Part shown: positions 17,812 through 61,312 of the stretch, in pieces
Layout: every line of letters begins with the position of its first letter
How positions within the stretch are numbered: position 1 is the stretch's first letter
DNA from: Actinoallomurus soli
Lineage (GTDB): Bacteria > Actinomycetota > Actinomycetes > Streptosporangiales > Streptosporangiaceae
NCBI RefSeq assembly: GCF_024055715.1
Contig: NZ_JAMXMV010000003.1
Span: 124,001-188,000 of the forward strand
Reading direction: 5' to 3'
Length of the DNA stretch: 64,000 nucleotides
Notes under the pieces: model-generated
What the model was told of the DNA's origin: nothing
Seen by the model: only the letters and a program-made list of their open reading frames with translations
Database searches by the model: none
Position numbers and translations under genes: made by a program

Positions 17812-18067
17812 TCTCAGGCCAGGGCCGAAGGTCGAGTAGCGTCCCCGGTACCTGGCCCTGAATCCGGCCGATTCCCCCAAGCCCGACGCCGCCTCGGCTT
17901 CGGTACCTGCGAGTCGGTCCGACCGTAGATGAAGTGTCGCGGGCATCTTTCACGGTGATCATCCGCCGCTCTTCACCGCCGCAGCTCGCCCAAAGCTCGG
18001 CGAAACCGATGGCACGCATGAGGAGTCTCATCGTCCGCGAATCCAGAGAAGCGAAGGAGCCACTGAG

Positions 18068-18742: not shown

Positions 18743-19140
18743 CGACGCCCATCCCGGCCGTGCATCAGTGCGGTCACCGCCGTCGGCGGAGGCATCACCC
18801 CTCCCAGCGCACCGAGCGAGGTGGGTCGCTGCACTACAACGCTGGTCGGCGGCGCGGAGGTCTCACGCCTTCTGACATCGGTGCCCAATCCTGCCGAGGC
18901 AGGATTCTTCATCGCATGGCCGCTTGATCGTTCGGGTGATGATACATACGTGCAGAATGAACTCATGACGGCAGTTGCTCCCCGACGGTCCCGCCTGACC
19001 GTGCGGGCGGCGCCGTCGGGCGGACCGCCCGCCGCCCCCGGTGTGAGGCCCGCATGCGGACTCCCGACAGACAACGTCGATTCTTTGTCTTACGCTGCTT
19101 CTGACGGAATGGCGTGAGGGCACGGATTCGGGAGCATCGT
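18743..19140. other. 398-base intergenic region before the Trypco2 operon
   Basis: No convincing gene is present; a 98-codon open frame beginning at 18821 has no ribosome-binding site or family pattern. The region contains a terminator-like hairpin at 18887-18906 and then an AT-richer segment (TTGATC around 18926, TACATA around 18943) that may hold the promoter of the protease operon. Direct evidence for that promoter is weak. Confidence 0.5.
18887..18906 (+). terminator. short hairpin, possible terminator
   Basis: AATCCTGCC and GGCAGGATT form a 9-base perfect inverted repeat with a two-base centre (in practice a 7-bp stem with a 6-base loop), followed by CTTCATC. There is no long T run. It lies 145 bases after the DUF3558-like gene. 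Confidence 0.4.
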
Positions 19141-19476
19141 TTGGCACTGGACGATATGGAACTCGCGGAGGCTGTCAGAGCCGTACGTGACGAGCTGTTG
19201 AGAGCCGCCACCCAAGGTGCCGGCAGCGAAGTTTCGTTCGAGGTCGGACCGATCGATCTCGAATTCAGCGTAGAGTTGCGCAGGGACACGCAGACCCGCG
19301 GTGGAATACGGGCTTACATCGTCTCTGCGGAGGCCAACGCGGGCAAGAGCCAGGTTCGTACCCATCGGGTCTCCCTATCCCTGACTCCTCGCCGGACGGC
19401 CGACGGCGGTCCCTTGCTGATCGCCGCGGACGGTGAGGGAGACCCGGCTGGCCTGGCCGATGCTGGGCCGCTGTGA
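19141..19476 (+). CDS. Trypco2 (trypsin-co-occurring domain 2) protein
   Basis: A 111-residue protein matching the Trypco2 layout: an N-terminal helix MELAEAVRAVRDELLRAA, then SFEVGPIDLEFSVEL, and a final strand HRVSLSLTPR. These small proteins are encoded next to trypsin-like proteases in predicted actinobacterial and cyanobacterial conflict systems, and presumably regulate or target the protease. I chose the TTG at 19141 because GGGAG lies 6 bases upstream; GTG at 19114 and ATG at 19156 are alternatives. Its stop overlaps the protease start (GTGA), so the two are coupled. Confidence 0.75.
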   Translation: MALDDMELAEAVRAVRDELLRAATQGAGSEVSFEVGPIDLEFSVELRRDTQTRGGIRAYIVSAEANAGKSQVRTHRVSLSLTPRRTADGGPLLIAADGEGDPAGLADAGPL

Positions 19477-21620: not shown

Positions 21621-22392
21621 AGCGTCCCCCGACGCGGCCGGCCAGTTCGATCGCAAGGCGGTCAGGCAGTGGCTCAAAGAGCAGATCGTATTGGAACCCG
21701 AGGTCTGTGGCCGAATCAAAGTCATCTTGGATGACGCCAAGAAGGATGCCTTCAGGGCCAAGGACACCAAGAAGAGACGCAGTGCCCGGCACCGGCTGGA
21801 GACAACGCCGGTGGTCACGCTGCTGCGCAAGGATCCCAGGGTCAATCCCCGGCATCTCACGTACGCCGGGATCGTCACCGCCGCTCATGTCATCGATCTG
21901 GGTGCGAGCAAGCTTGCGGCCAAGACGGGCATCGACGCGGCCGCCGCCGAGAGGTGGGTCCGGGCGGCCAAGGACGTCAAACGGGCCCAGAGCGATGACA
22001 GCCGCCCGCCGGATCATGTGTCCGCCTGGCGCGAAGAGGACGTCGCGTTGGTGAGTGCGCTGATCGTGCTCGATTCCGCATGGAGCCTGTACCTCGCCCC
22101 GCACACCAAGGTTCTCACCGACCCGGTCGAAGAGGCGCGGATACTCCTCCGGCGTACCTCTGCGCCTCTGTGGAAGCTCTACCCGGGCCGTCGGGCCCTG
22201 GTGATCGAGGACATCGCGAGCCTGGCGCAACGAATCGATCCTATGGAGACCGCCGAGGCGAAGTCCCAGGCAGAGAGGCATATCTCCCGGCATTACACGC
22301 TCGTGGGCCAGTTGAGTGATCCCCACGAGGTCGCACGGATCTGGCAGTACAAGAGGGAGGATCTGCTGGAGTTGCTGAAAGAGGTCCCGTAA
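21610..22392 (+). CDS. unknown protein, third gene of the Trypco2-protease operon
   Basis: A 260-residue soluble protein with no recognised family. The GTG at 21610 is preceded by a strong GGAGG with 4-base spacing and overlaps the end of the protease gene by 11 bases, so it clearly belongs to the operon. The first 60 residues are rich in Lys/Arg and charged helices (KDAFRAKDTKKRRSARHR). The centre contains RHLTYAGIVTAAHVI and AAERWVRAAKDV, and the C-terminus is helical (WQYKREDLLELLKEV). It could be a nucleic-acid-binding sensor, protease substrate or effector; none is shown. Several upstream in-frame codons exist, but none has a comparable ribosome-binding site. Confidence 0.7.
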   Translation: MTFEASPDAAGQFDRKAVRQWLKEQIVLEPEVCGRIKVILDDAKKDAFRAKDTKKRRSARHRLETTPVVTLLRKDPRVNPRHLTYAGIVTAAHVIDLGASKLAAKTGIDAAAAERWVRAAKDVKRAQSDDSRPPDHVSAWREEDVALVSALIVLDSAWSLYLAPHTKVLTDPVEEARILLRRTSAPLWKLYPGRRALVIEDIASLAQRIDPMETAEAKSQAERHISRHYTLVGQLSDPHEVARIWQYKREDLLELLKEVP

Positions 22393-22968
22393 AGGGCGCC
22401 GAAGTCGGCGGACTTAGTCGCCGAATACGGGAGGCGTTTTGACGGCGCGGCCAACGGTCATTCGCCGTTGCTGAACGGGTTGGCGCTGGCTGCGGTCTTC
22501 TGAAATGTTGCCGGTCTTGCTGGAGTGGGCACGGACGTGCAAAAGCCCTTTGATTCGCATGGCTGGACGGCCCTCCAGGTCGCTGCTGCCTATGGCTACG
22601 TCCGCGACTCAGACCGCCGATATCAACCGAGCAATCGCGGCCGAGAAGCAGTGCGAAGCAGAGCACGATCTGGCCACCTCTCACGTGTTCGAGAGGAGCG
22701 CTTGATGGGCCACAGCCGTCGACGGCGAGTTCGGCGCGCGCCTTGACCTGACGCTGGGATCGACCAGCTCAGGGCGACGACGGTGCGCCTCAGCCTGGAT
22801 GTCCTCCCCGCTACCACCAATGCTCGTCGGCCGGCCTTCTCCTGAACCCCGGCAAAGTCGGCGCACCAGTCTCGGCCAGCTCGACCGTCCGCTCTACGGT
22901 GTTCGCCGTTGCCGTCAAGAAGGCGTGTCCAGTTGATCCCGCCCCAGGCTCTCACCTGGGAAAACGAG
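22393..22968. other. 576-base region without a recognisable gene
   Basis: Between the Trypco2 operon and tRNA-Thr. Only short frames are present (the longest plausible one about 66 codons at 22505-22705), none with a ribosome-binding site plus a family pattern. Composition is less biased than in the flanking genes, which suggests decayed sequence. The only structured element I see is the hairpin at 22943-22960 just downstream of the tRNA. I found no copy of the tRNA 3' end that would mark an attachment site. Confidence 0.55.
22943..22960 (-). terminator. hairpin downstream of tRNA-Thr
   Basis: CCCAGG and CCTGGG form a 6-bp stem with a 6-base loop. On the minus strand it comes 8 bases after the tRNA 3' end and is preceded by CGTTTT. 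It is a plausible processing or termination hairpin, though short. Confidence 0.4.
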
Positions 22969-45903: not shown

Positions 45904-46021
45904 CCTATCGAGCAGGCCATTCCCATCTCTGGCCGAAGCCGTGATATGCCCGGTAATGTAAAGTCGCCTTTTCTCGGGTGCGACATCCGTCATGCCGCGT
46001 CGGCCATTGCGAGGGGAACGC

Positions 46022-46366
46022 ATGACGAGGAGCGACAACGCTCTCAACTGGCAGGTTCAGCAGGAGAAACTGTCCGCGGCCGCGGAGGGGACCTATCAGA
46101 TCGCCCGTGGCCTGCGCAGGACGGTCACCGAGACCTCTGCGGGGTGCCTGGCGGTCACGTCCGGTCACCAGGGTTTCTCGTGCGTCGGGACGCTCGCGCG
46201 GCTCCACGAGGCGCATTCCGCGCATTTCGAGGGCCATGCGGCCGAGGCCGACGAACTGACGCACCGTTTCCTGAACACCGGGACGACTTACACGGGCGCC
46301 GAGCATGCCGCCTGGGGCGCGGTGGGCCGGGCCAGGCAGGTGACCGAGTCGGCGCGAGAGGTCTGA
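46022..46366 (+). CDS. small ESX/WXG100-superfamily-like protein
   Basis: A 114-residue, mainly helical protein preceded by GAGGGGAACGC. Two long helices (about residues 8-35 and 60-110) and the WQVQQEKL and AAWGAVGRARQVTESAREV stretches resemble secreted EspC/DUF2580 or WXG100-like helical hairpins, though there is no exact WxG. It lies one base upstream of a gene for a WXG-like/transglycosylase fusion, so the pair probably forms a heterodimeric type VII substrate. No signal peptide is present, as expected for ESX substrates. Confidence 0.65.
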   Translation: MTRSDNALNWQVQQEKLSAAAEGTYQIARGLRRTVTETSAGCLAVTSGHQGFSCVGTLARLHEAHSAHFEGHAAEADELTHRFLNTGTTYTGAEHAAWGAVGRARQVTESAREV

Positions 46367-46367
46367 C

Positions 46368-47366
46368 GTGACGATCTCGTACCAGCAGCTCAGGGATGCC
46401 AACCCGGCGATGTTCCACCAGAGCGCGGCGGCGTGGAAGGACTGGGCCGACGCCGCACTGGTCCACGCCGGGTACGTCGACGACCGGGTCAATCCGCACA
46501 TCCAGCCGGGGCACTGGGACGGCATGGTCGCCGAGCTGGCCCGCGGCAAGGTGACCGACGCCAAGTCGCGGCTGACCGACTCCGCCGGTCGCCTGAAGAC
46601 CATCGAGACCGTGCTCGTCCAGGCCGGCCAGGACTTCGAGCAGGCCCAGCAGGATCTGCTCGAAGCCGTCCGCGAGGCCCAGGACACGTGGCACTTCGAG
46701 GTCGACGGCGACGGGCACATCACCATCCCCGGGCCCCTCATCGACCCGAAGACCAAAGACAAGGACACGATCACCAAGACCAAGAACGCCGCGGCGACCC
46801 TGCAGACGAAGATCTCGGCGGCGCTCTACCGGGCGGACCAGGCCGACAAGGGTGTGAACAACGCGCTGAACGGCCTGTTCCCCCCGAAGGGCGGGTCGCC
46901 GACCGGCGGCGCGGGCCCGACCGGGGGCCACGGGCCGAGCGGGTGGAACGGTGACTACGGGCCGAGCGGCGGTCCGCCGCTCCAGAAGCCCAGCGGGAAC
47001 GTCGCGGAGTGGATCCGGCAGGCGATCGCGGTCCTGCACCAGCACGGCATCAACCTCGGCCCGAACGACGCGAGCTACATCGCGACGATCATCCAGTACG
47101 AGTCCGGCGGCAACCCGCACGCGATCAACCTCTGGGACTCCAACGCCGCCGCCGGTCACCCCTCCAAGGGCCTCATGCAGACCATCGACGGCACCTTCAA
47201 CTCGTACGCGATGCGCCAGGCGGGCGGTGCGGCGCCCAACGTCTGGAACCCCGTCGACAACATCGTCGCCGGCGTGAACTACGCGCTGCACCGGTACGGT
47301 TCGCTGGCCAACGTCCCCGGCATCCGGAACCTCATCCACCACACCGGCGGATACGTCGGCTACTGA
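46368..47366 (+). CDS. putative type VII-secreted lytic transglycosylase with WXG-like N-terminal domain
   Basis: A 332-residue two-domain protein. Residues 1-170 are a helical hairpin domain with W23, W26 and W50-D-G and long amphipathic helices, like WXG100-type or DUF4226 secretion domains. A Gly/Pro/Ser linker (about 172-210) follows. Residues 212-332 are an SLT-type transglycosylase with catalytic Glu245 in IIQYESGGNP, SKGLMQTIDGTF and VAGVNYALHRYG. It should cleave peptidoglycan, perhaps to let large secreted proteins through the wall. It is coupled to the small ESX-like gene and converges on the operon of the 3210-residue giant. Confidence 0.82.
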   Translation: MTISYQQLRDANPAMFHQSAAAWKDWADAALVHAGYVDDRVNPHIQPGHWDGMVAELARGKVTDAKSRLTDSAGRLKTIETVLVQAGQDFEQAQQDLLEAVREAQDTWHFEVDGDGHITIPGPLIDPKTKDKDTITKTKNAAATLQTKISAALYRADQADKGVNNALNGLFPPKGGSPTGGAGPTGGHGPSGWNGDYGPSGGPPLQKPSGNVAEWIRQAIAVLHQHGINLGPNDASYIATIIQYESGGNPHAINLWDSNAAAGHPSKGLMQTIDGTFNSYAMRQAGGAAPNVWNPVDNIVAGVNYALHRYGSLANVPGIRNLIHHTGGYVGY

Positions 47367-47385: not shown

Positions 47386-47988
47386 TCACGCGTCGCGCAG
47401 ACTGCGGAAGTCCCGGAGACTCCGCTCGTAGAAGGCGAGCTCCTCCTCCAGCCGCGCCCTCGTGAACCGCTCCGGGGCCTCCTGGCGGGTAAGGGTTCCG
47501 AGCTCCGACCAGAACGCCGTCTCGGGCACCTCGTCGGCGTCCGGGGGAAGGAACCTGGCGGCCTCGCGCAGCGCCGCACGGGCCACCTCCCAGCCCTGCA
47601 CCACGTTCCGGTAGAGGTCGTCATCGGAGGTGTCCCGGGCGGAGTCGAGGCTCTCCAGCATCGCCCGGCGCGCGTACGCGGCGGCGACCTGCACCCACTG
47701 CCCGGCGTCGATCAGCTCGGAGGGCCCGTCACCGAACATCAGGTCCTCGTCCCGTGCCGTCGCCTCGCTCGCGTACGGGATCACGACCTCGACCGGGTCG
47801 CCCTGACCGGCCCCCTCCCTCTCGATCCGCAGCGTCCAGGCGTCCGGCCCCTCGGTCAGCGTCGTCCGCGGGCGGGAACCGCCCGCCGGCTCGCCGCCGG
47901 ACGCCGCCGGTTCGTCGCCGGACGCGGTCGCGGACAGCAGGAGGTCGGCGTACAGCTCGGCCTCACGAAGCGTCCTGGCAATGGGCAC
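47386..47988 (-). CDS. immunity-like protein, paralogue of upstream gene
   Basis: A 200-residue acidic soluble protein of unknown function. It shares with the protein encoded 4 bases upstream the N-terminal PIARTLREAELY, the middle SELIDAGQWVQVAA, and the C-terminal DEVPETAFWSELGT followed by PERFTRARLEEELAFYE. The two are clearly paralogues. The GTG at 47988 is chosen because AAGGAG lies about 9 bases upstream and because it aligns with the paralogue start. Its place after a giant WXG100-like gene suggests an immunity or chaperone role; this is inference. Confidence 0.7.
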   Translation of the reverse strand: MPIARTLREAELYADLLLSATASGDEPAASGGEPAGGSRPRTTLTEGPDAWTLRIEREGAGQGDPVEVVIPYASEATARDEDLMFGDGPSELIDAGQWVQVAAAYARRAMLESLDSARDTSDDDLYRNVVQGWEVARAALREAARFLPPDADEVPETAFWSELGTLTRQEAPERFTRARLEEELAFYERSLRDFRSLRDA

Positions 47989-47992
47989 GGCC

Positions 47993-48556
47993 TCAGTCTC
48001 CTTCTTCGCGTCGCTCGGGCGCATCGCCCGCCCGGTGCCCGCTCAGCCGGTCGCGGTAGTCCTCCCGGAGGGCCCGCAGCCGGTCCCGGGTGAACCGGGC
48101 GGGCTCGGCGTCGCGCTCCCGCCGTCCGCGTCGGGACCAGAAGGCCCGCTCCGGCACCGCCTCGTCGCCGGGGCCCAGGAACTTGACGATCTCATCGACC
48201 GCGGCCACCGCGATCGCCAGTGCGCGGCGTTCCTCGGCGGGATCGTCGGCGGGGGCGTTGCGTGAGGTGAGGTCGGCCACCCACAGCCATTCGCCGGCGT
48301 CCAGCAGGCGCGACGGCTCCGGCCCTCCGAACGTCGGGTAGCCCACGGGCACGACCTCGTGCTCCGGCAGGCCGAAGAGGTGCTCGCGCGCGTTCCCGCA
48401 CCCGGCGCACGTGCCCGCGTACCGGCCGACCGGCGTCCCTTCGGCCAGGACGATCCCGTGCCTCCAGGTCGTCTCCACCGATCCGCAGACCTCGCACGGG
48501 TGAAGGTCGAGGTAGAGGTGTGCCTCATCCCTCGTCCGCGCCACGGGAAACGGCAT
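47993..48556 (-). CDS. immunity-like protein with zinc-ribbon-like cysteines
   Basis: A 187-residue protein. The N-terminus FPVARTRDEAHLYLDLHPC and then C-x2-C pairs (CEVCGS and CAGCGN) form a likely zinc ribbon. The rest matches its downstream paralogue (SRLLDAGEWLWVADL, DEAVPERAFWSRRG, ARFTRDRLRALREDY). The paralogue has lost all these cysteines. Proteins of this type recur in actinomycetes next to large secreted toxin-like genes. It starts 36 bases after the giant gene and is probably in its operon. Confidence 0.72.
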   Translation of the reverse strand: MPFPVARTRDEAHLYLDLHPCEVCGSVETTWRHGIVLAEGTPVGRYAGTCAGCGNAREHLFGLPEHEVVPVGYPTFGGPEPSRLLDAGEWLWVADLTSRNAPADDPAEERRALAIAVAAVDEIVKFLGPGDEAVPERAFWSRRGRRERDAEPARFTRDRLRALREDYRDRLSGHRAGDAPERREEGD

Positions 48557-48592: not shown

Positions 48593-51500
48593 CTAGACGC
48601 CGCCTCCCCCGGGCCCGGACGCCACGGCGCCCTCGCCGGTCGCCTCGCCCTGCCAGGACCCGGGTCGCGCGTCGGCGTCGGGCCGGATCGCCTGCCTGCG
48701 GGGAACGTCCCGGTCGGGAACGGCGACGCCCCGGCCCAGCAGCTCGGCGCGCACGTGGTCGCCGAAGGTCCCCTCCCCGTCCCACTCGTTGAACAGCCGG
48801 CGCAGGTCCACGCCGTGCTCGTCCGCCCGCTCGGAGTACCACCGGTCCAGCGTGGCGAACGCCTCGGCGAAGCCGCCGTCGGTCCACTCGTCCTCGGAGT
48901 GCAGCATCCCGTCCTTGGTCGCCAGGTAGCGGTGTGCCTCCTGGCCGGGCACCTCCACCTCCACCCGTACGTCCGTCTGGTTGAGCATGGCCTTCATCAG
49001 CGCCTGCCGGAGCGGGGCCGACGGCCGCCGCGGATCGGCGGTGACCAGGTCCCAGTGCCGGTCCGCGCCGCCGGCCGCTCCGCCGGGCGCGCCGTCGGAT
49101 GGCATCGGCCAGGCGGGCGCCTCCGGCCGGGGGGCCTCCTGCCGGTCCCGTGCGGCCTGGTACTCGTAGTCCGGCAGCGTCAGGTTCACGGTGCCGTGGG
49201 CCGTTCCGCTGATCTCCTTCTTGCCGTGGGTCACGGTGATCTCGGCGATGTAGTGCGCGCGCGCCTCGGTCCCCTCGCCCTTGACCATGGCCGTGGTCTC
49301 GATCCTGAGCCCGCTGCTCGTTCCGACGCTCTCGGACGCCTGCGCGCCGGTGGCGACCGACTCGCTTCCCCCGAGCGGGCCCACGGGCACGTTTCCGGAG
49401 AACCCCCGGGTGACGGGGAAGAGCCGCCCCTTGGAGATGGAGTATCCGGACATGTGCTGGTCTCGCCACACCTTGCCGTACTCCACGTCCGTCAACCCGC
49501 CCACGTCGATGGACGGATCGACGAGCGTGAACCTGATCCGCGCGGTCGCCTCCTGGCCCCCGTAGTGCACGGTGAGCGAGCGTCCTGCGCCGGTCAGCTG
49601 CTCGAAGTTGGCCTCGCGCCAGGTCGCGCGCCACTGGTGCGCCAGCTGGAACTCGATCTCCGGGCGTGCCCCCGCGGGGAGCAGCTCGCTGAACGCGTCG
49701 AGCATGAAGGCGTGCGGCCCCTCGCCGTCGATCTCGTGCGCGTAGACCTTGGCGCCCTCGAGGATGAACGGCCGGTGGTCGGCCGGCCCGCCCGGAACGG
49801 AGGAGTGGTCGGGGGCGGACGGTCGATCGGGAACGGACGACCGGTCCGGGGTGGACGGCTGAGCGGCGGACGGCTGAGCGGCGGGTCGCTCCTCGACGGG
49901 GAAGGCCTGCTCCGTGGGCACCCACCGGACGACCGTTCCCTCCAGGGTGGCGGTGGCGCGGGTGAGGGCCTTGGGCGCCTTGTCCTCGTCGACGAGCCGG
50001 CCGGACTGCAGCGGCGCCCGCTCGACCTCGAGGTCGACCCTGAGGGACTGCCGGAACTTGGTCAGGCCGAACTTGGCGACCCGGTTGACCTTGGTCTGCT
50101 GCTCGCCGCTCGACTGGGTGACGGACGTGCTGCGGCCCGTGGACGCGCTGCCCGTCGTGTCCGTGTCCGAGCCCGACACGCCGCCGCCGAGGGACTTGCC
50201 GTCGGTCTCGGAGGTGCCGGTCTCCAGGTAGTCGTACTTCTGCCCGATGTGCCCCTGATCCGGGCGTACGGCGAGCACCTCGTGGTCCTGGCCCGTCACC
50301 GCCTTCATCCGCAGGTGGAGCAGCTGCACGCCGTGCGAGGTGTTGATCTGGACGGGGACGCGCTCGACGTGGCCCAGGAAGTCGATCGCGTCCCGGAAAT
50401 GGCCGTACGGGCGCTTGCCGGCGAAGGTCCGGTAGAGCGCGTGCTTCAGCGCGTGGTCGGTGTTCAGCGCGTCCGGGGCCACCTCCTCCACGAGGCGCCT
50501 CATCGCGTCGTAGAGCTTGACCTCTTCCCCGCTCGGGGTCTTGAGGTGCATCTCCTCGACCATGGCCGAGTGTTCCCAGGGGTCGGGGATCGTGATCCGC
50601 CGGGGCTCGTTCACCAGGTCGACGGCCCGGGTGATCTGCTCGCGCAGCAGGTGCTCGGCGGGGGCCTTGGTCAGGCTGGGGCCAAGGCCCGTCGCCGACT
50701 CGAGCTTCGCCTTCAGCACGTCGGGGGTGTGGTGCTCGGCCAGCGGCACGTGGGCTCCGGCCTCGGCCGCGTCCGCCAGGTCCTTGGTGTAGCGCTGGAG
50801 GAGCGGGCCGGCCAGGTCCCGGTCGAGGTGCATGGTGCCGTTGAGGACCCGTTCGACGGCGTCGGCCGTCAGCGCCGGCGGGTGCTCCAGCGTGCCCGCG
50901 GCGTACAGCTCCAGGCTGTTGACCTCGCCGATCGACAGGAGCATCGGGCGATCCGGCAGGGGCACCGTGACGGGCTTGTGGTTCCCGCGCTGGACGACGG
51001 CCTCGAGGTCGGCGCTGGCGCGATGGACGTACTTGTTGTCGAGGCCGATCTTCAGGTCCTCGTGGGCGCCGATCTGGAGAGTCGACGTGGACGTCGAGGT
51101 GTTCCTCCCCTTGGACCCGTCGACCTCTCCGCCGGCCGTCGAGCCGCCCGCCTGGTGCTCGGTGCCGTTGAACGACCCGCTGGTGCTGTGGCTGTGCGAC
51201 TCCGACCGGGAGCTGCCCGCGCTGGAGAGGTTCATCCGGATGACGCCGTCGACGTCCGGGGCGACGACGATCTCCCCCACCGAGGTCACGTCCCGCATCC
51301 TGAGCGTGACCGAGATCGCTTCCGGCACCGGCCCGTGCGGGTCCACGATCAGCTCGACCGTGTACGGCGCCCCGGCGAACCACTCCGGATGCGAGCGCAC
51401 GTTGTCGGGATGCAGCAGGGCGGAGAGCTGGTTGTAGCCGGTGGTGCCGGGCTCGAGACCGGCCGCCGCGGCGACGTCCTTCACCGCGCCGCGCAGGTCG

Positions 51501-54500
51501 AGCGCCTGCACCTGGACCTTCTCGCGCACCGCCGGCGGGAGCGGGCGTTCGGCGTCCGCACCGGTCGCGGCCGGATCGGCGGCGGGCCGGTCCTGCGTGT
51601 CGCGCGGCAGCAGGTCCGTGGAGATGACCACCTCCGCGCTGCCGTCCTGGGTGATGATGTTCTTCCCGTCGAGGTCGACCCCGCTCTTGTCCGGGATATG
51701 CCATCGCGTCTGCCGGCCCGTGGGCTCGTGCAGCTCCACCGCGTTGCCGGTGTTGCCCTCGGACGCGCCGATGCTGTGGCCGTTGTTCCGGGAGTGGTTC
51801 ACGCCGGCCTTCGGGGCGAAGCCGGCGTGCCCCTGGCCGGGGTCGTGTCCCAGGGACGCTCCGCCGCCGTACTCCCACGCCGACGAGGCGGCGCGCGACC
51901 GGCCGGCCGTGTCCGACCCGATGCCCAGGTAGGCCTCGCCCCGGTCGTTGGTCGTCTCGATGACCCTGGCGTTGGCGAAGTCCTGGTCCTTCCAGAGGGT
52001 CAGCGTGCGCGTCTCCGGCGCGTGCCCGCTCCGGACGTGCGTGAGCGGGATGTCCAGCGCCCTCTGGCCGGCGGCGTTGTAGTGCGTCGCCACGAACCGC
52101 GGGTCCAGGGCGTCCCGTACCTGTTCCAGGGTGAGGGCCTGGCCGATCTGCTCGACCATGTCGCCGTCCGGGTCCCAGATCTGCCGGCCCTCGGCGTCGA
52201 GCTCCGGCAGGAAGCCGTCCTTCTGCAGCTCCTTGATGATCGCGTCGTGGACGCGTGCGTCGCCTTCGGCGTCGGGGCCCATCCGGACGTTCTCCACCAG
52301 TGCGTCCCCGGCTCCGCGCACCTGGCCCCTGCCCGTTCCCAGGTGGGCGGGGAGCTCGGCCTTGTAGCCCTGCGGCACTCCGGGGTCGCCGTCGTCGCGC
52401 GACGCCACCGAGCCGTCGGGTCTCCTCATCACCTCGCCCGAGGCGTCGTGCTCGACCGCCGCCGCGTCGACCGGTGCCCCGTGCCGGAGGAGTTCGTTCT
52501 CGGGAGCCTGGACGACCTCCTCACCGGTGTGCGTGAACCGCAGCGTCCTGTTCTCGCCGATCACCGTGACCCGGGCCTCGTACACCACCTCCTTGAAGTG
52601 CATCACCACCTCATGGCCGGTGGCGCGGTTCACGATCACGAAGTAGGCGTTGCCGCCCATGTTGATCCCGTCCGAGCGCGCGCGGTTGTAGCCGCCGGAC
52701 ACCTTGGGCCCCACGCCGAGGCCGTAGTCCTTCGGCCCCGGTACGGCGTCGAAGGAGTCGATCCCCGGGATCTTGAGGCCGAGCGAGCCCGAGACGTCGA
52801 TCGAACGGTTGAAGGACTCCGATCCGTTCACGCCGACCACGCCGATGCGCAGGCGCTCCTGCCACACGTCCTTGCTGGCCTTGGTCAGCGGCACGGCGCT
52901 GTCCAGCACCATCTTCTTGGTCAGCTGGACCTCCAGCTTCGGCCGGCCGTTCTCGAAGATGATGTCCGGCACCCCGGACTCCCGGTTGGCGGCCTTGTAC
53001 GAGTGGCCGGGGAGCTTCTGGGTGATGGCCGTCTGGAGATCTCTCTGGGCGCTCTCGCTGAGCGGGTGCCCCTCGGCCCGCAGCCCGTCCACGGTCGTCT
53101 TGAGCAGCTCCTCCGGCCCGTGCGACCAGAGGGTCACGTGCTCGGGGAACGGCGTCCGGCCCCGCTCCTCCGGCGGCAGCTGGAACGTGTGCTCCGGGGG
53201 CGGCAGGGTCTGGGAGTGCGGGAGGTACAGGTGGAGTTCGGCCGCGTCGTCGCCGACGCCCTGGGTGACGCGCTCGACCGACGTGCCGGGGGCCGTGCCG
53301 GTGTCGCGCGACTCCACGTGGACGACGACCTGCTTGGCGGCGAACCGCCGCTTCGGCCCGCGATCGTCGGCGACGTCGCCGTACCGCGCGTCGACGAGGA
53401 CACTGCCCTTCTCGGACAGGTTCCTGCCGACGGTCACCCCGACACTGGGCGCGACGTGCTCCAGGACCCCCTTGACCGCCGAGTGATCGGGCATGACCTT
53501 CGCCAGACCCGACCCGTCGAGGCCGAACGGGGTGCTGAGGCTTCGTGCGAGGGCCGCCCCGGCGGTGACGCCGGTCTGGGGAAGCGAACCGCTGACGTTC
53601 TGGGAGGCGTCCACGGGATCGTCGAGGACCTCGACGAGATCACGGGCCTCCCACTTCACCCAGAGCCTGTGCCCGCGAACGCGTAGTTCGGCGCCCTGCG
53701 GGGACAGCACGTGGCGGAGTTTCGCCCCCAGCTGGTCCTCCACCTCGGAGGGGGTCACCCGGTCGGTGCTCCCCTGGTGCGCCAGCATCTCGTTCCAGCG
53801 CTCCGTGGTCGCGTGCAGCAGCGGGAAGCGGCCGGTGATGGCGCCGTTGGACAGGACGTGTTCCGAGGGCAGCGCCGCGTCATGCGCCTCCTGGTAGGCG
53901 GTGAAGCGCTCCTGCGCGTCGTGGGCCAGCGCGACGACGTCGTCGTGCGACACCCCCGTCGCGGACGCCGGAGGATGCTCCCCCGTCTCGAGGCGCTCCA
54001 GGGAGCGCTGCAGCGCCTCGTACCGGTCGTGCGCCTCGGCGGCCCTGTCCAGCGCCTTGTCGTACGCCGCGGCCATCTCCCGGTGGTACTCCTGCAGCGT
54101 CCGCGCCTTCTCGCTCGCCGCGGCGGCCTTGCGGCTGCGTTCGAGCGCACCGCTGTCGCGCTCGCCCGCCTCCTTCATGGCCTCCCGGAAGGAGGCGTCG
54201 GCCCCCTCACCGGCCTCCTGCGCCTTCGCGCGGTGGAAGTCCACCCGTTCCAGCAGCGCCTCGAAGTCCCGGTGCAGGGCGGCGGTGATCTCGTGGGTCC
54301 TCGCCCTGACCTCGGAGACCGGCGTGACCGTCGCGACGCTCCCGCCGTCTCCCCCCGGCGCCAGGGTGGCAGGGTCGCCGGCGGCGCGCGCGGGCGCTCC
54401 GGCCTCCGCCGTACGGGCCTCCGCCGGGAGAACGCCGTCCCGCCCGCTGACCCAGGGCGGCTGCGGGGGCGTCCGCCCCCGGTCCCGCATCTCCGCCGCG

Positions 54501-57500
54501 AGGTCGTCGATCTCCCGGGTCAACCGCTCCCGTACGACCGGGTCCGTGGCCTCCAGCCACTCGCGCGCCAGGTACCGGTGGCGGGTGAAGTACTCGGCCG
54601 TACGGTCGGGGCCGCTGAACGCGGACCGTACGTCGTCCATGAACCGGCGGATCACGCCCTGGCCGGACCGGACGTCCCGTGCCGCCAGGGACTGCAGCCG
54701 GTCGTGCACCGCGTGCTGCCAGATCTGCGGCAGCTTTCGCCCCTCCTCCGCGACGACGTGCGGAGGCAGGCCGGCCGCCACGGCGGCCTCCTTCGACATC
54801 ATCGTCGGGGGCACGGCGAACCCGTGCTCGCCGAAGTCCGCGAGCTGCGAGAGCGGATCCCGCGTCACCGCGTGCGGCAGCTCCCGGACCTCGACGGTGA
54901 ACCGCTGGTCGCCCCAGTGCTCGGTCTCGACGACGACCGTCCTGCCGTCGTCGGCCACGCGCCACCCGCGCACCTCCGGGCCGAAGTCCGACGGCAGCAG
55001 GTCGTCCAGCGCCCGGTGCACCTCCTGCACGCTGAGTTCCTGCATGTGGGCGGGACGGTCGGGGAGGGCGGGCCCGGCGGGGTGCGTCGCGCCGGACGGC
55101 CGTGACCCGTCCGGGACCGTTCCATCCGGCCGGGGGCCGCGCGAGGCCGGGGCGCCGTTCGCCGACGCGCCGCTCTTCGACGGGTCGGCGCTCTTCGACG
55201 GGTCGGCGCTCTTCGACGGGTCGGCGCTCTTCGACGGGTCGGTGCCGAGCGCCTCGACCTGCCGGGTGATCGACCGTGCCGTCGGCTCGTGCGCCGACGG
55301 CCGCAGCAGGGTGTCCGGCTCCACCGAGCGGCCCAGGACCGACGCGGCGCGCGCGGAGTCTCCCGACAGCACCTCCCGGCGCACGGCGGCGACGTCGTCG
55401 GCGAACTCCGGGTGGAGGTCGGCCATGCGCTGGAGGGCCTCCAAGGCGCCGTCCACCCGCGGCCGGCCACCGAGCCGGGCGACCTCGCCGCCCAGCCAGG
55501 CCGTGGCCTCGGCGCGCAGCCGCCCCGGGCCGACGCCGTCGGCGGCCCGTCCGGTCAGCCGCTCCTCGGCGTTGGAGAGCACCTTTGCCGGGACGTCGAC
55601 GGCGCGCCCATCCGGTCCGGTCACCCGCAGCCCGCCGTCCTGCAGCGGCAGACCGTCCGGAGCGGCGATCCGGCGTCCGTCGGTCACCGCGTCGCGTGCC
55701 AGGTCGGCGGGCGTGTCGGCGGGCGTTCCCCCGCGCGGGGGCAGGGCCGGGTCTCCGCCGTTCTCCACCCCGGCGGGCGCGGCGGTGGTCTTCGGCGGAA
55801 CGGCTCCGCCGGAGCCCTCGGGCCCGGCCGGTGTCGCCGGTGCCGGGAGCGGTGCCTCTCCGGCCGGAACCGGGGTGACGGTGGTGCCGTTGGTCGCGGG
55901 CGGGGCACCCTGGCCCTGGTCCCCGGTCGCCACCGGCGCCCCGTGGTGCTGTCCTCCGGTCGTCGCGGGAGGGGCGCTCTGGCTCTGTCCTCCGGTCGTC
56001 GCGGGAGGCGCACCGTGATCTCGCCCACCGGTCGTCGCCGGAGGCGTCCCCGGGGACTGTCCTCCGGTCGTCGCGGGAGGCGCGCCCTGGCTCTGCCCGC
56101 CCGTCGTCGCCGGAGGCGCGCCCTGGCTCTGCCCGCCCGTCGTCGCGGGAGGCGCGCTCGGGTTCTGCCCACCCGTCGTCGCCGGAGGCGTGCCCTGGGA
56201 CTGCCCGCCCGTCGTCGCCGGAGGCGCGCCCTGCTGTTCTCCGCCGGTCGTCGCGGGAGGCGTGCCCTGGGGCCGGCCCGCGGGGGCGGGGAGAGCGCCG
56301 GGCGCCCCACCGCCCTCTGTTCCACCGGTCGGCGCGGGGGGAGCGGCCGGGACGATCTGTCCTCCGGGGCCCTCCGTCCCCGGTGGTACGGCCTGCGCCG
56401 GGAGCGACGGGGGCTCGGGGTTCAGGATCCCCACGACGCTCGTGCCGGGGGCCGTGGGCGGGGTGCCGTGGTTCGGGCCCGCGACAGTGGCCGGCCCGTC
56501 GGAACCCGGCAGCGCCGGAAGGTCCGGCCGGGGCGTCTGGACCGGATGCGAACCGGTGCCGGCCAGCTCGATGCCGGACCCGGGTGCGGCCGGATGGGCG
56601 CCACCGGCCTGCGCTTCGCCCGTGCCGCCCGTGTGGCCGGTGGCCGGGCCGGGGTCCCCGGACACCGGCACTCCGTCGCGCGCGATGACCTGGCCCGGGA
56701 TGTCGTAACCGACCCCGCTGTCGGAGGTGAAGTTGTAGTCGTCGCGGGGATTGGGTATGCCGTCCCGGGAGAACGGCGGAGTCACCCGCCCGTCGTTGCT
56801 GTAGGAGGCCCGCGGACCGCCCCCCTCCTCGAAGGGCAGACCGTTCGGCGGAGGAGGCGGCCCACCATTCCCGCCGGAGCCGGGCGGAACCCCATCCGCA
56901 CCGGAGCCGGATCCTGACCAAGGGCCATCCCCGCCGGGAGGCGGAGGCCCGTCATCGCGGGGCCCGCGCTTCATGATGTCGCTGAAGGCGCCGATGCCGG
57001 CCATCCCGAAGCCGAACGTCGCCGCTTCCTTGAGGTTCACGTGCCCGTCGTCGAACGCCGCCTGCGCCGCGACGTTCCCCGCCGTGGCGGCGGTGCCCGA
57101 GAACAGGAATCGGCTGCCCCAGCCCTTCAGGCCGGGAGCCTCCATCGCGTTCGACAACGCCGTGGTGATGTTGTTGCCCCGCAGCCCGACCCAGCCGCCG
57201 GCGGCGCCCATCACCCCACCGGCGACGGCGCCCGTGCCGATCGCCTTGAACAGCTCGCCGGTGTCGAAGTGGTCCTGCGCGCCCGTCTCCATGAAGGACG
57301 TCTGCCGGACGACGTCCATTCCGCCGCCGTACCAGACACCGGCCACGACGGCGTCGACCACCGCGCGCACCAGACCCTGCAGGGCGATGCCGGCGGCCTT
57401 GGTGGTGGCCAGCGCGCCGGCGATCGAACCACCGAGCGTCGGCCCGGACCACGCCTTCGCGATGATCCAGGTCACGATCAGGAAGACGATCATGCGGTCG

Positions 57501-58225
57501 AACTGCAGCCGCGCGCCCTTCTTCTGCCGGATCAGCAGATCGACCGACCTGCCGAGACCGCGCAGGTCCGAGACCAGCCCCTGCAGCCCGCCCTTGCCGT
57601 TCTCTCCCTTCAGCAGGTCCGTCTTCAGGCTGAACAGTTCCTTCGCCACGCCTTCGTTCGGCGACTTCACCGCCTGCACGTGACGCGAGACCTCAGAGGC
57701 CACCTTCTCGGCCTCCGCGGCCGCGTGGAGGAACGCCTCGCGCAGCTGTGCCAGCGCGGCCATGTTCCCATCGGGGTACTGGACGCCCAGCCCCAGCGAT
57801 TCGAGGAGGTAGAAAATCTCCTTGCCCCCCGTGGGGGGCGGGTCCGACTCCGGGAGCGCATCGCTCGCCGGAGGCAACGTGTAGTGCTCGATCGCCGGGA
57901 CGGGGACCTGCTCACCCCTCGGGCGTTCGGCCTGCTGGTACGTCGCACCGGAAGCGATCATGCGCCGGCCCGCCGAACGCAGTTGGTTCACCATTCCGGC
58001 GATCTCGTCGAGCGTTCCTTGCCGGGATTCGCGGAAACCCGGCCTGCCCGATCCCCCGTTGAAGAAGGCCAGCCCGATGTCGTCCTGGCCGTAGCACTCG
58101 CCGGCCGCACTCACCCGGTAGACCAGCGAATCCGCCGCGTTCGCCAGCGAGTCGGCGACCGAGAGAATCGCACGGCCCGCCGAGACCCACGTCTGGGAGT
58201 AGGCGACCAACCTGTCGGCGACCAC
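48593..58225 (-). CDS. giant (3210-residue) WXG100-like polymorphic-toxin-type protein
   Basis: GTG start with a GAGGGG ribosome-binding site. Residues 1-110 form a WXG100-like helical region (YSQTWVSAGRAIL). About 135-240 is a second helical part (LESLGLGVQYPDGNMAAL), and about 243-415 is hydrophobic and Gly/Ala-rich, the layout of CpnT-like N-termini. Proline-rich linkers (425-860) include ten 12-residue PATTGG repeats. Near 995-1018 are four ADPSKS repeats, and near 1300-1412 a coiled coil. From about 1600 to 3050 come five or six beta-rich modules, each with a Ser/Gly/Asn-rich hairpin-like stretch (near 1812, 2118, 2345, 2678 and 2968). The final 150 residues are unrecognised. It is probably exported by a type VII system; toxin activity is inferred from context only. 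Confidence 0.82.
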   Translation of the reverse strand: MVADRLVAYSQTWVSAGRAILSVADSLANAADSLVYRVSAAGECYGQDDIGLAFFNGGSGRPGFRESRQGTLDEIAGMVNQLRSAGRRMIASGATYQQAERPRGEQVPVPAIEHYTLPPASDALPESDPPPTGGKEIFYLLESLGLGVQYPDGNMAALAQLREAFLHAAAEAEKVASEVSRHVQAVKSPNEGVAKELFSLKTDLLKGENGKGGLQGLVSDLRGLGRSVDLLIRQKKGARLQFDRMIVFLIVTWIIAKAWSGPTLGGSIAGALATTKAAGIALQGLVRAVVDAVVAGVWYGGGMDVVRQTSFMETGAQDHFDTGELFKAIGTGAVAGGVMGAAGGWVGLRGNNITTALSNAMEAPGLKGWGSRFLFSGTAATAGNVAAQAAFDDGHVNLKEAATFGFGMAGIGAFSDIMKRGPRDDGPPPPGGDGPWSGSGSGADGVPPGSGGNGGPPPPPNGLPFEEGGGPRASYSNDGRVTPPFSRDGIPNPRDDYNFTSDSGVGYDIPGQVIARDGVPVSGDPGPATGHTGGTGEAQAGGAHPAAPGSGIELAGTGSHPVQTPRPDLPALPGSDGPATVAGPNHGTPPTAPGTSVVGILNPEPPSLPAQAVPPGTEGPGGQIVPAAPPAPTGGTEGGGAPGALPAPAGRPQGTPPATTGGEQQGAPPATTGGQSQGTPPATTGGQNPSAPPATTGGQSQGAPPATTGGQSQGAPPATTGGQSPGTPPATTGGRDHGAPPATTGGQSQSAPPATTGGQHHGAPVATGDQGQGAPPATNGTTVTPVPAGEAPLPAPATPAGPEGSGGAVPPKTTAAPAGVENGGDPALPPRGGTPADTPADLARDAVTDGRRIAAPDGLPLQDGGLRVTGPDGRAVDVPAKVLSNAEERLTGRAADGVGPGRLRAEATAWLGGEVARLGGRPRVDGALEALQRMADLHPEFADDVAAVRREVLSGDSARAASVLGRSVEPDTLLRPSAHEPTARSITRQVEALGTDPSKSADPSKSADPSKSADPSKSGASANGAPASRGPRPDGTVPDGSRPSGATHPAGPALPDRPAHMQELSVQEVHRALDDLLPSDFGPEVRGWRVADDGRTVVVETEHWGDQRFTVEVRELPHAVTRDPLSQLADFGEHGFAVPPTMMSKEAAVAAGLPPHVVAEEGRKLPQIWQHAVHDRLQSLAARDVRSGQGVIRRFMDDVRSAFSGPDRTAEYFTRHRYLAREWLEATDPVVRERLTREIDDLAAEMRDRGRTPPQPPWVSGRDGVLPAEARTAEAGAPARAAGDPATLAPGGDGGSVATVTPVSEVRARTHEITAALHRDFEALLERVDFHRAKAQEAGEGADASFREAMKEAGERDSGALERSRKAAAASEKARTLQEYHREMAAAYDKALDRAAEAHDRYEALQRSLERLETGEHPPASATGVSHDDVVALAHDAQERFTAYQEAHDAALPSEHVLSNGAITGRFPLLHATTERWNEMLAHQGSTDRVTPSEVEDQLGAKLRHVLSPQGAELRVRGHRLWVKWEARDLVEVLDDPVDASQNVSGSLPQTGVTAGAALARSLSTPFGLDGSGLAKVMPDHSAVKGVLEHVAPSVGVTVGRNLSEKGSVLVDARYGDVADDRGPKRRFAAKQVVVHVESRDTGTAPGTSVERVTQGVGDDAAELHLYLPHSQTLPPPEHTFQLPPEERGRTPFPEHVTLWSHGPEELLKTTVDGLRAEGHPLSESAQRDLQTAITQKLPGHSYKAANRESGVPDIIFENGRPKLEVQLTKKMVLDSAVPLTKASKDVWQERLRIGVVGVNGSESFNRSIDVSGSLGLKIPGIDSFDAVPGPKDYGLGVGPKVSGGYNRARSDGINMGGNAYFVIVNRATGHEVVMHFKEVVYEARVTVIGENRTLRFTHTGEEVVQAPENELLRHGAPVDAAAVEHDASGEVMRRPDGSVASRDDGDPGVPQGYKAELPAHLGTGRGQVRGAGDALVENVRMGPDAEGDARVHDAIIKELQKDGFLPELDAEGRQIWDPDGDMVEQIGQALTLEQVRDALDPRFVATHYNAAGQRALDIPLTHVRSGHAPETRTLTLWKDQDFANARVIETTNDRGEAYLGIGSDTAGRSRAASSAWEYGGGASLGHDPGQGHAGFAPKAGVNHSRNNGHSIGASEGNTGNAVELHEPTGRQTRWHIPDKSGVDLDGKNIITQDGSAEVVISTDLLPRDTQDRPAADPAATGADAERPLPPAVREKVQVQALDLRGAVKDVAAAAGLEPGTTGYNQLSALLHPDNVRSHPEWFAGAPYTVELIVDPHGPVPEAISVTLRMRDVTSVGEIVVAPDVDGVIRMNLSSAGSSRSESHSHSTSGSFNGTEHQAGGSTAGGEVDGSKGRNTSTSTSTLQIGAHEDLKIGLDNKYVHRASADLEAVVQRGNHKPVTVPLPDRPMLLSIGEVNSLELYAAGTLEHPPALTADAVERVLNGTMHLDRDLAGPLLQRYTKDLADAAEAGAHVPLAEHHTPDVLKAKLESATGLGPSLTKAPAEHLLREQITRAVDLVNEPRRITIPDPWEHSAMVEEMHLKTPSGEEVKLYDAMRRLVEEVAPDALNTDHALKHALYRTFAGKRPYGHFRDAIDFLGHVERVPVQINTSHGVQLLHLRMKAVTGQDHEVLAVRPDQGHIGQKYDYLETGTSETDGKSLGGGVSGSDTDTTGSASTGRSTSVTQSSGEQQTKVNRVAKFGLTKFRQSLRVDLEVERAPLQSGRLVDEDKAPKALTRATATLEGTVVRWVPTEQAFPVEERPAAQPSAAQPSTPDRSSVPDRPSAPDHSSVPGGPADHRPFILEGAKVYAHEIDGEGPHAFMLDAFSELLPAGARPEIEFQLAHQWRATWREANFEQLTGAGRSLTVHYGGQEATARIRFTLVDPSIDVGGLTDVEYGKVWRDQHMSGYSISKGRLFPVTRGFSGNVPVGPLGGSESVATGAQASESVGTSSGLRIETTAMVKGEGTEARAHYIAEITVTHGKKEISGTAHGTVNLTLPDYEYQAARDRQEAPRPEAPAWPMPSDGAPGGAAGGADRHWDLVTADPRRPSAPLRQALMKAMLNQTDVRVEVEVPGQEAHRYLATKDGMLHSEDEWTDGGFAEAFATLDRWYSERADEHGVDLRRLFNEWDGEGTFGDHVRAELLGRGVAVPDRDVPRRQAIRPDADARPGSWQGEATGEGAVASGPGGGGV
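55173..55244. repeat. four exact 18-bp repeats inside the giant gene
   Basis: The unit CTCTTCGACGGGTCGGCG starts at 55173, 55191, 55209 and 55227, with only end-unit variation. It encodes ADPSKS-type hexapeptides near residues 995-1018. It keeps the frame, so copy number could change without disrupting the gene. Confidence 0.9.
55889..56270. repeat. 36-bp tandem repeats inside the giant gene
   Basis: About ten copies of a 36-bp unit encode 12-residue repeats such as QSQGAPPATTGG at about residues 650-778. The anchor GTCGTCGC recurs at 36-base spacing (for example 56103 and 56139). Variation is mostly in the QSQG part (QNPS, RDHG, QHHG). It forms an extended proline/threonine linker between the hydrophobic N-terminal region and the modular C-terminal part. 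Confidence 0.85.
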
Positions 58226-58768: not shown

Positions 58769-61312
58769 TCAGCCGCCGCGGAGCAGGTCGCGCGCCGACG
58801 CCGCCGCCAGACGCAGCGCCTCGTCCAGGTTCCGGACCCGCCGGCCGCCCGCGTTGGCGACGGTGCCCTTGCCGCCCGCGCCGCCGCCGATCGCGGTGGC
58901 CGCGGCCGCCAGGACCGTACGCGCCGGCTCGCCGAGGTCCGGGCCGACCGCCGCCACCATCAGCGCCCGGCCGCCGATCTCCGCGCCGAGCACGACGACG
59001 CCGCCCCGGCGCCGCAGCACCTCCGCCGCCAGCGGACGCAGCTCGTCCGCCCCGACGCCGTCGACCCGCTGGACGACCAGCCAGCCCTGGCCGACGCGCT
59101 TGGCGTGCCCGGCCAGGCGTACGGCCTCCGCGGTCAGCTCCTCCCGCCGGTGCCGCTCCAGCACCCGGCGCGCCTCCGCCAGCTCGGCCAGCCGCCGCCG
59201 CAGGCGTTCCGGCGCCTCGTCCGGGCGGGCCCGCAGCAGGTCGGCGAGCTCGGTGAGCAGCGCCCGCTCGCCGTCCTGGTGCCGCAGCGCGTCCGCGCCG
59301 GTCAGCGCCTCGATCCGGCGGACGCCCGAGCCGATCGAGGACTCCCCGAGCAGATGGATCGGGCCCGCCTGTGAGCCGTGGCCGACGTGGGTGCCGCCGC
59401 ACAGCTCACGGGAGAAGTCGCCGATGTCGACGACGCGCACCCGCTCGCCGTACGTCTCGCCGAACAGCGCCATCGCCCCGGCCGCCTCCGCCCGCGCCCG
59501 GTCCGCGTGCCACACACGAACCTCCGGGTCGGCGAGCAGGTGCTCGTTGACCAGCGCCTGGACCGCGCGCAGCCGCTCGGGCGAGAGCGGTTCGAAGTGC
59601 GCGAAGTCGAACCGCAGCCGTCCCGCGTCGACCAGCGACCCGCGCTGCGCGGCGTGCGCGCCCAGGGTCCGGCGCAGCATCGCGTGCAGCACGTGCGTCG
59701 CGGTGTGGGACCGCGCGACCGCCGCCCGCCGCTCGGCGTCCACGACCGCCTCCGCCTCCTCCGGGAGGACCTCACCGGACTCGACCCGCGCGACGTGGAC
59801 GTGACCGGGCCGCGTGTCCGTGACCGTGAGGACCGCCCCGGACGCCGTACGGATGACGCCCCGGTCGCCGACCTGGCCGCCCGCCTCGGCGTAGAACGGC
59901 GTCCGGTCGAGGAGCACCTCGACCTCGTCCCCCTCGGCCGCCGCCGGAACCTCCGCGCCGTCGCGCAGGATCGCGCGCAGCCGTACCTCCGCGTGCGTCG
60001 CGTCGTAGCCCACGAACGCGGTCGTGCCGGTTCCCGGCCGCGGTTCCCGGCCCGGTTCCGTACGGCCGGACCGGCTGCGCCGCCGTCGCTCCTCCAGGAG
60101 CGAGGAGAAGGCGTTCTCGTCGACGGTGAGACCCGCCGCCCGCGCCGCGTCGACCGTGAGGTCGAACGGGAAGCCGTACGTATCGTGCAGGTCGAACGCG
60201 ACCTTCGGCGACAGCCGCCGCTCCCGGATCGCGGAGTCGAGGATCCGCGACCCCTGGCGCAGCGTCCGCGCGAACCCCTCCTCCTCGGCGGTCACGACCT
60301 TCTCGATCAGCGGGCGCGCCGTCTCCAGCTCCGGCCAGGTCGCGCCGTGCAGGTCCACCACCGCGCCGGTGAGGACGGGCAGCACCACGTCGTCGACGCC
60401 GAGGAGGCGCGCGTGCCGGATCGCCCGGCGCAGGAGCCGCCGCAGCACGTACCCGCGCCCGTCGCCCGACGGCAGGACGCCGTCCGCGATGAGGAACGCC
60501 GCCGTCCGCGCGTGATCCGCGACGATCTTCAGTGCGGTCTCGTCGCCGCCGCCCGCCAGCTCCCGTACGCTCTCCAGCACCGGGAGCATCAGGTCGGTGT
60601 GGAAGATGTCGGGCACGTCCTGGAGCACGATCGCGAGGCGATCCACGCCGAGACCCGTGTCGATGCTCTTGGCCGGAAGCTCCCCCACGATGCGGAAGTC
60701 CTCGTCGCGGACGTCCTGCATGAAGACGAGGTTCCACAGCTCCAGGTAGCGCTCGCCGCCGGTCGCGGGACCGCCGCCGGGGCCGTACGCCGGGCCGCGG
60801 TCGTAGTGGATCTCCGAGCTCGGCCCGCACGGTCCGGCCATGCCCATCGACCAGTAGTTGTCCACCTTGCCGAGGCGCTGAATCCGCTCGCCGGGCACGC
60901 CGAGCCGGCGCCACAGGCGCTCGGCCTCGTCGTCCTCCTCGTACACCGTGACCCAGAGCCGGTCACGCGGCAGGCCGAACCCCTCGGTGATCAGCTCCCA
61001 CGCCCACGCGGTCGTCTCCTCCTTGAAGTAGTCGCCGAAGGAGAAGTTGCCGAGCATCTCGAAGAACGTCACGTGCCGGGCGGTACGGCCGACGTTGTCC
61101 AGGTCGCCGGTGCGCGCGCATTTCTGCAGCGTGGTCGCGCGGCGGAAGTCCGGGATGACCTGGCCGAGGTAGTACGGCTTGAACTGGTTCATCCCCGCGT
61201 TGGTGAGCAGGAGCTCGGGGTCGGGCGAGACCAGGGGACTGGAGGGCACACGGCGATGCCCGCGCGCGGTGAAGAAGTCGAGGAAGACGGAACGAATCTG
61301 CGTGGAACGCAT
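58769..61312 (-). CDS. alaS: alanyl-tRNA synthetase
   Basis: An 847-residue class II synthetase. The catalytic domain starts MRSTQIRSVFLDFFTARGH with TNAGMNQFKPYYLG and NVGRTARHVTFFEMLGNFSFGDYF. The editing domain has the zinc-site HTATHVLHAMLR and CGGTHVGHGSQAG, and the C-terminal oligomerisation domain includes GGGAGGKGTVANAGG. All domains are complete, although the protein is somewhat shorter than typical AlaRS (about 880). Actinobacterial alaS usually sits with ruvX and aroE; none of these is nearby, so this may be a second, accessory copy. The ATG follows GTGAGG with 7-base spacing, within a structured leader. Confidence 0.93.
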   Translation of the reverse strand: MRSTQIRSVFLDFFTARGHRRVPSSPLVSPDPELLLTNAGMNQFKPYYLGQVIPDFRRATTLQKCARTGDLDNVGRTARHVTFFEMLGNFSFGDYFKEETTAWAWELITEGFGLPRDRLWVTVYEEDDEAERLWRRLGVPGERIQRLGKVDNYWSMGMAGPCGPSSEIHYDRGPAYGPGGGPATGGERYLELWNLVFMQDVRDEDFRIVGELPAKSIDTGLGVDRLAIVLQDVPDIFHTDLMLPVLESVRELAGGGDETALKIVADHARTAAFLIADGVLPSGDGRGYVLRRLLRRAIRHARLLGVDDVVLPVLTGAVVDLHGATWPELETARPLIEKVVTAEEEGFARTLRQGSRILDSAIRERRLSPKVAFDLHDTYGFPFDLTVDAARAAGLTVDENAFSSLLEERRRRSRSGRTEPGREPRPGTGTTAFVGYDATHAEVRLRAILRDGAEVPAAAEGDEVEVLLDRTPFYAEAGGQVGDRGVIRTASGAVLTVTDTRPGHVHVARVESGEVLPEEAEAVVDAERRAAVARSHTATHVLHAMLRRTLGAHAAQRGSLVDAGRLRFDFAHFEPLSPERLRAVQALVNEHLLADPEVRVWHADRARAEAAGAMALFGETYGERVRVVDIGDFSRELCGGTHVGHGSQAGPIHLLGESSIGSGVRRIEALTGADALRHQDGERALLTELADLLRARPDEAPERLRRRLAELAEARRVLERHRREELTAEAVRLAGHAKRVGQGWLVVQRVDGVGADELRPLAAEVLRRRGGVVVLGAEIGGRALMVAAVGPDLGEPARTVLAAAATAIGGGAGGKGTVANAGGRRVRNLDEALRLAAASARDLLRGG

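Follow-up and report, generated by a model that had tools for sequence, protein, structure and literature searches.

A giant gene with six repeated modules in Actinoallomurus soli

The window analysed here, a 64,000-nucleotide stretch of the Actinoallomurus soli genome (contig NZ_JAMXMV010000003.1, positions 124,001 to 188,000), carries on its minus strand a giant gene (48593..58225) that, as a preliminary description had held, is a single intact frame of 3210 residues without a stop. From N- to C-terminus the encoded protein comprises a WXG-like N-terminus, a WXG100_2-like domain, a hydrophobic stretch, a linker, a degenerate zincin-like domain, a helical hairpin, six modules and a C-terminal domain, and two partner genes, termed A and B, follow downstream on the same strand (Table 1). 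No C-terminal toxin had been recognised earlier, and we found none: the protein ends in a conserved domain (residues 3060-3170) with no toxin match in Pfam or NCBIfam, leaving no exchangeable C-terminal toxin domain. From residue 1500 onward there is no match to Pfam (E up to 0.1) or NCBIfam at all, and such regions have therefore probably gone unannotated so far.

Sequence-profile comparisons confirmed six homologous modules (M1 to M6) between residues 1497 and 3032. A plain self-BLASTP search of the protein returned no internal repeats; the register was revealed by a windowed profile comparison. With a 24-row family profile, nine of the 15 module pairs outscored all 30 reversed-profile controls (best control, 45.6), and pairs of a module with a non-module segment reached at most 21.1. 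All nine passing pairs lie within M2 to M6, and the five pairs that involve M1 score 23-42, none of them passing. In the window protein, a common module hidden Markov model (HMM) recovered six copies scoring 61-109 bits; the reversed protein yielded four fragments, none above 27.6 bits. The preliminary description had read five or six similar modules from about residue 1600; their similarity stands in both analyses, with the number now six and the start at residue 1497.

Relatives of the giant were matched in four of eight genomes of the genus group (the window's included) and, by a profile search of the GTDB collection, at six loci in Actinomadura, Actinoallomurus and Nonomuraea; 23 relatives share 24-35% identity with the window protein. 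The common HMM found six modules in all 25 giants (E<1e-4, at least 100 profile columns; 38-152 bits; reversed giants, at most 31 bits), having been trained on 24 of the 25 giants that it counts, the window's modules included. Outside its training stood L065 (excluded from the alignment because of its length), L107, L010, the second giant of L011 and the very large frames described below. The hold-out L107, from N. gerenzanensis, has six modules, with partners A and B immediately downstream. More distant are L010 and the second L011 giant, with five module matches each; in L010, position-specific HMMs found one match apiece for M1 to M6. This second L011 giant (16330-22563, minus strand; 2077 residues), whose module matches are weak, has a similar N-terminus and lies convergent with the first. 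The giants of L013 and L053 sit at contig ends, so that their N-termini are possibly missing.

In a FastTree phylogeny of 144 family modules and 32 modules from the very large frames, each position M1 to M6 has a split that holds all 24 of its own family tips and no family tip of another position (supports 1.0, 0.89, 0.63, 0.99, 0.98 and 0.93, respectively). The array therefore appears to predate the spread of the family, with its order kept and each position under its own constraint. Judged from these sequences, the module array is old, ordered and position-specific, in contrast to an adhesive repeat that gains and loses copies.

Table 1 Features of the giant gene and its neighbourhood, with positions in the window
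Feature	Position	Strand	Residues	Basis and remarks
Giant gene	48593..58225	-	3210 in total	GTG start; GC at third codon positions 0.93
WXG100_2-like domain	57401..57802	-	142-275	PF25547, 20.9 bits, below cut-off of 27
Hydrophobic segment	57332..57490	-	~246-298	Kyte-Doolittle 19-residue windows >1.6 starting at 246, 277, 279, 280
Pro/Gly/Thr-rich linker	55706..56968	-	~420-840	Tandem PPATTGG-type repeats; read from translation
Zincin-like domain	54416..55108	-	1040-1270	Degenerate catalytic motif HAVHD (relatives: HE[IL]SH)
Long helical hairpin	53735..54334	-	1298-1497	Family HMM 1e-61; AlphaFold2 helices 1303-1353, 1360-1414, 1427-1451
Module M1	53141..53737	-	1497-1695	HMM 60.9 bits; most divergent; AlphaFold2-predicted hairpin 1553-1570 / 1591-1619
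Module M2	52481..53113	-	1705-1915	HMM 97.3 bits; AlphaFold2-predicted hairpin region 1787-1888
Module M3	51605..52255	-	1991-2207	HMM 81.2 bits; AlphaFold2-predicted hairpin region 2097-2168
Module M4	50930..51496	-	2244-2432	HMM 109.1 bits; AlphaFold2-predicted hairpin 2302-2352 / 2367-2413
Helical insert, conserved, between M4 and M5	50594..50872	-	2452-2544	Family HMM 2e-28
Module M5	49904..50518	-	2570-2774	HMM 101.5 bits; AlphaFold2-predicted hairpin 2633-2684 / 2693-2740
Module M6	49130..49708	-	2840-3032	HMM 87.8 bits; AlphaFold2-predicted hairpin 2891-2935 / 2962-3000
C-terminal domain, conserved	48716..49048	-	3060-3170	Family HMM 2e-45
Partner A	47993..48556	-	187 in total	Starts 36 bases past the giant's stop; two CxxCG pairs, by eye a predicted zinc ribbon
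Partner B	47386..48024	-	212 in total	Overlaps 3' end of A; paralogue of A, hhalign probability 99.5
Lytic transglycosylase (SLT)	46368..47366	+	332 in total	PF01464, 3e-11; adjoins EspC-like gene
EspC-like type VII substrate	45992..46366	+		PF10824, 24.0 against cut-off of 23.5; convergent with partner genes

Each module is predicted to present one long hairpin

AlphaFold2 models of the giant (mean predicted local distance difference test, pLDDT, 63; predicted template modelling score, pTM, 0.52 and 0.33) place one hairpin in each module, with strands of 18-52 residues, and each module is accordingly predicted as an alpha/beta head bearing one long Ser/Gly/Thr-rich beta-hairpin. The Ser/Gly-rich stretches listed earlier near residues 1812, 2118, 2345, 2678 and 2968 fall within the predicted hairpins of M2 to M6. 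Their alternating character is borne out by lag-2 hydropathy autocorrelation against shuffles, with z values of 3.5 (M2), 5.7 (M3), 6.6 (M4), 2.3 (M5) and 6.6 (M6), and is not seen in M1 (-2.3). The preliminary description would have given up the repeat idea had profile comparison found no similarity between modules or had structure prediction returned unrelated disordered segments; the modules proved similar, and AlphaFold2 returned hairpins, at moderate to low confidence. The best amphipathic 10-mers of the hairpins are barely stronger than those in shuffles. Foldseek and VIA structure searches with the models listed outer-membrane barrels and MACPF pores, none of them significant, and Pfam gave no match to MACPF or other beta-pore-forming families in the window protein.

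The N-terminus and genomic setting suggest type VII export

The giant is likely exported by an ESX (type VII) system. Residues ~1-110, ahead of the WXG100_2-like domain, read by eye as WXG-like, and PF25547, below its cut-off in the window protein, exceeded it in four of four N-terminal pieces of relatives tested (L012, L015, L011 and L014), which supports the type VII layout proposed at the outset. ESX machinery is present in the window's genome, where five EccD loci score over the cut-off, two of them on the window's contig, and in L013 an FtsK/EccC-type ATPase, EccD and two WXG100 genes lie within ~10 kb of the giant. Two small genes (one YbaB-like, one WXG-like by eye) lie upstream on the same strand, one or both in 21 of 24 giants, the YbaB-like gene of L014 scoring below the cut-off; the window giant has neither upstream. 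Within the linker, at about 55850-56250 of the window (minus strand), we also noted tandem repeats of 11 residues resembling PPATTGGQSQG.

The zincin-like domain is degenerate in the window copy

With an HMM built from HExxH copies, 37 zincin-like copies were found in 23 of the 25 giants, and HExxH with a later Glu is intact in 16 of them, spread over 15 giants; middle copies frequently read HExxD. The window giant has HAVHD in place of HExxH with a third ligand, and no second copy. Its nearest relatives are likewise without an intact copy (L011, HGITD; L013, HEVTD). C-terminal zincin pieces tested against Pfam and NCBIfam gave no match over the cut-off, DUF6782 appearing only below it. Some relatives with a C-terminal zincin (L012, L014, L016, L057 and L058) end in a short Cys-rich tail (CxC...CxCG), which is absent from the window protein.

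Partner genes A and B are conserved beside the giant

Partner A, which has no Pfam or NCBIfam match, was matched in 26 of 150 genomes of the family (the window's included), and 20 regions were taken from 19 genomes (G070 twice; G046, G087, G029, G129 and G108 left out), G000 (the window's genome) and G003 having been part of the data set beforehand. A module-bearing giant adjoins partner A in 18 of the 20 regions, the misses being L064, with no giant within the region, and L066, with an unrelated giant. At these 18 module-bearing loci, partner B is present in 14, and partner A shares 59-65% identity with the window's copy in 17 and 52% in L065, far better conserved than the giants themselves. 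Partners A and B belong to the giant's system.

A partner-A search of 394 genomes of the class matched 19, again including the window's, and nine regions were taken. In three (L093, L094 and L095) partner A neighbours proteins with a match to the zincin profile and none to the modules; in L099 a single frame matches both partner A and the zincin profile, again not the modules; the remaining five show neither arrangement. The metal motif of the zincin-profile proteins is altered in all four (HExxE, REISE, HEITD). The conservation of partner A, together with these neighbours, speaks more for a role as chaperone, escort or zincin cofactor than for toxin-specific immunity, a preference that does not settle the matter.

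In L066 (9201-17591) the partner-A homologue stands beside a 2385-residue giant, adjoined by genes that resemble EccC and EccD by eye; this giant has matches below the cut-off to a XopAI-like ADP-ribosyltransferase (ART) effector and to Nudix enzymes.

Very large relatives carry several module clusters

A module query of the 394 class genomes gave matches in six, the window's included. One genome from another family, G267, holds module-bearing open frames of 19,630 residues (L085-L087; contig C17, ~1913-60803, plus strand) and of at least 10,692 residues (L089-L091; contig C23, ~38923 to beyond 70999, minus strand). The common HMM, untrained on these frames, gave 17 and 18 module matches, respectively (E<0.05; reversed, at most 5.2 bits), and an iterated HMM (gen2) gave 17 and 20 (E<0.01; no more than 8 bits when reversed), grouped into about four clusters per frame; because gen2 includes modules of the frames that it scores, 17 and 18 are the cleaner counts. 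One cluster in each frame is collinear with M2 to M6, preceded in the second frame by an M1 match, and the other clusters are divergent and not in M1-M6 order. The 19,630-residue frame begins with a WXG100_2-like domain (25.4 against a cut-off of 27) and has an HExxH motif near its end; a Pfam scan, which covered all but ~100 residues and one codon, found EndoU, three ART stretches of Scabin-like type and, narrowly above the cut-off, a glutamine deamidase match. Two pieces of the second frame, which cover all but roughly its first third, gave no Pfam match.

A proposed tube for delivery and its rivals

Our best explanation, offered tentatively and with confidence somewhat short of even, is that the giant serves delivery: exported by ESX, it would form one tube from its six hairpins, the tube, pore and cargo being what we infer. 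The six hairpins of one chain would line up next to one another as one beta-sheet tube or barrel of 12 strands, a covalent pseudo-hexamer, which after export would serve as a conduit or pore by which the protein's own enzymatic payload reaches its target. That payload would be the zincin in most relatives and, in a single very large one, the ART, EndoU and deamidase domains, and partners A and B would act as a cytosolic chaperone or escort pair. Since the window copy is without catalytic zincin residues or a C-terminal payload, we propose that the tube itself may be the active part here. Delivery by a tube is favoured by the constant count and order of the modules and by their reappearance in a chain that also has toxin-type domains. 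The confidence of the predicted hairpins limits how far a tube can be read from them, and neither their amphipathicity, barely above that of shuffles, nor the non-significant structure matches support membrane insertion. We regard as doubtful the more specific proposal that a single exported chain of six non-identical modules makes a 12-strand barrel and passes its own toxin domains into a target cell. The initial interpretation, an unusual delivery or pore-forming protein, is supported in part.

The closest rival is a cocoon, in which the six modules would form a closed shell that protects an enzyme payload until delivery, like RHS/Tc cocoons, with no membrane entry. Weakly hydrophobic hairpins rich in Ser/Gly/Thr are in keeping with a soluble beta shell, enzyme domains lie beside module clusters in one very large relative, and a constant module number fits a closed shell equally well as a pore. 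We nevertheless consider it unlikely, as no payload that a shell could enclose is recognisable in the window copy, no RHS/YD match was found in its protein (Pfam, E up to 0.1), and the predicted strands, up to 52 residues, are much longer than those of YD repeats.

Less likely again is a surface fibre or adhesin, in which the modules would build a stiff, elongated beta structure on the cell surface that serves attachment or contact competition. The long Pro-rich linker, the Ser/Gly-rich hairpins and the loss of enzyme residues in the window copy would agree with this, and the adjacent SLT and EspC-like genes give a hint that the cell wall is crossed. The number of adhesive repeats is usually variable, however, whereas six position-specific modules are found in all 25 giants, and no anchor family is among the Pfam matches of the window protein. 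Least probable is a classical polymorphic toxin with the modules only as scaffold, the zincin as effector, A and B as immunity proteins and an inactivated window copy: it draws on the intact zincin-like copies and on the partner-A genes beside zincin-profile proteins without modules, but partner A (52-65% identity) outdoes the giants (24-35%), the opposite of what is usual for a toxin-specific immunity gene, it also adjoins the unrelated giant of L066, the metal motif itself is altered in L093-L095, and the window gene is intact.

To our knowledge, how type VII toxins pass from producer into target cell is unsolved. The ordered block of six hairpin modules, found in all 25 giants and in the G267 frames, one of which has toxin-type enzymes, is a testable candidate for a type VII delivery part. 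Six hairpins joined as a single tube or pore may, if the tube proposal is true, be a new kind of delivery part; with a barrel, type VII toxins would have a delivery channel built into the one protein, and such blocks would recur about four times per chain in the very large relatives.

Relation to known systems

MACPF domains carry two hairpins each, and the MACPF-type pore formers behind the weak Foldseek entries (perforin, pleurotolysin, poly-C9) have long beta-hairpins like those of the AlphaFold2 models. Their pores take hairpins from many subunits, whereas those of the window giant belong to one chain, and no match is significant.

A 2012 study (Zhang et al. 2012, PMC3482391) described actinobacterial proteins longer than 10,000 residues that combine several toxin domains. 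In its excerpted text, WXG-type giant multi-toxin proteins are likewise very long, one protein uniting ART, metallopeptidase and other toxin domains, and the 19,630-residue frame looks to be of this kind. Those giants are described there by their toxin domains, and the excerpts give no six-module block, fixed module number or partner genes; unlike them, the window copy has no toxin match. Many relatives of the giant share HExxH and a later Glu with the Tox-MPTase / PVC-metallopeptidase zincins of the same excerpts (PMC3482391), a motif that the window copy, unlike these zincins, has lost. CpnT of M. tuberculosis is a type VII substrate whose N-terminal part is needed for secretion and whose C-terminal part is a toxin (PMC8092274, PMC8593097); the excerpted descriptions contain no counterpart of the module array, and the window giant is set apart from CpnT by description only.

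Upstream of the giant lies a full-length alanyl-tRNA synthetase gene (alaS; 58769-61312, minus strand), of which the same genome has a second full-length copy (contig C21) and a partial match (C33); a spare alaS can mark inhibitor resistance or a special function.
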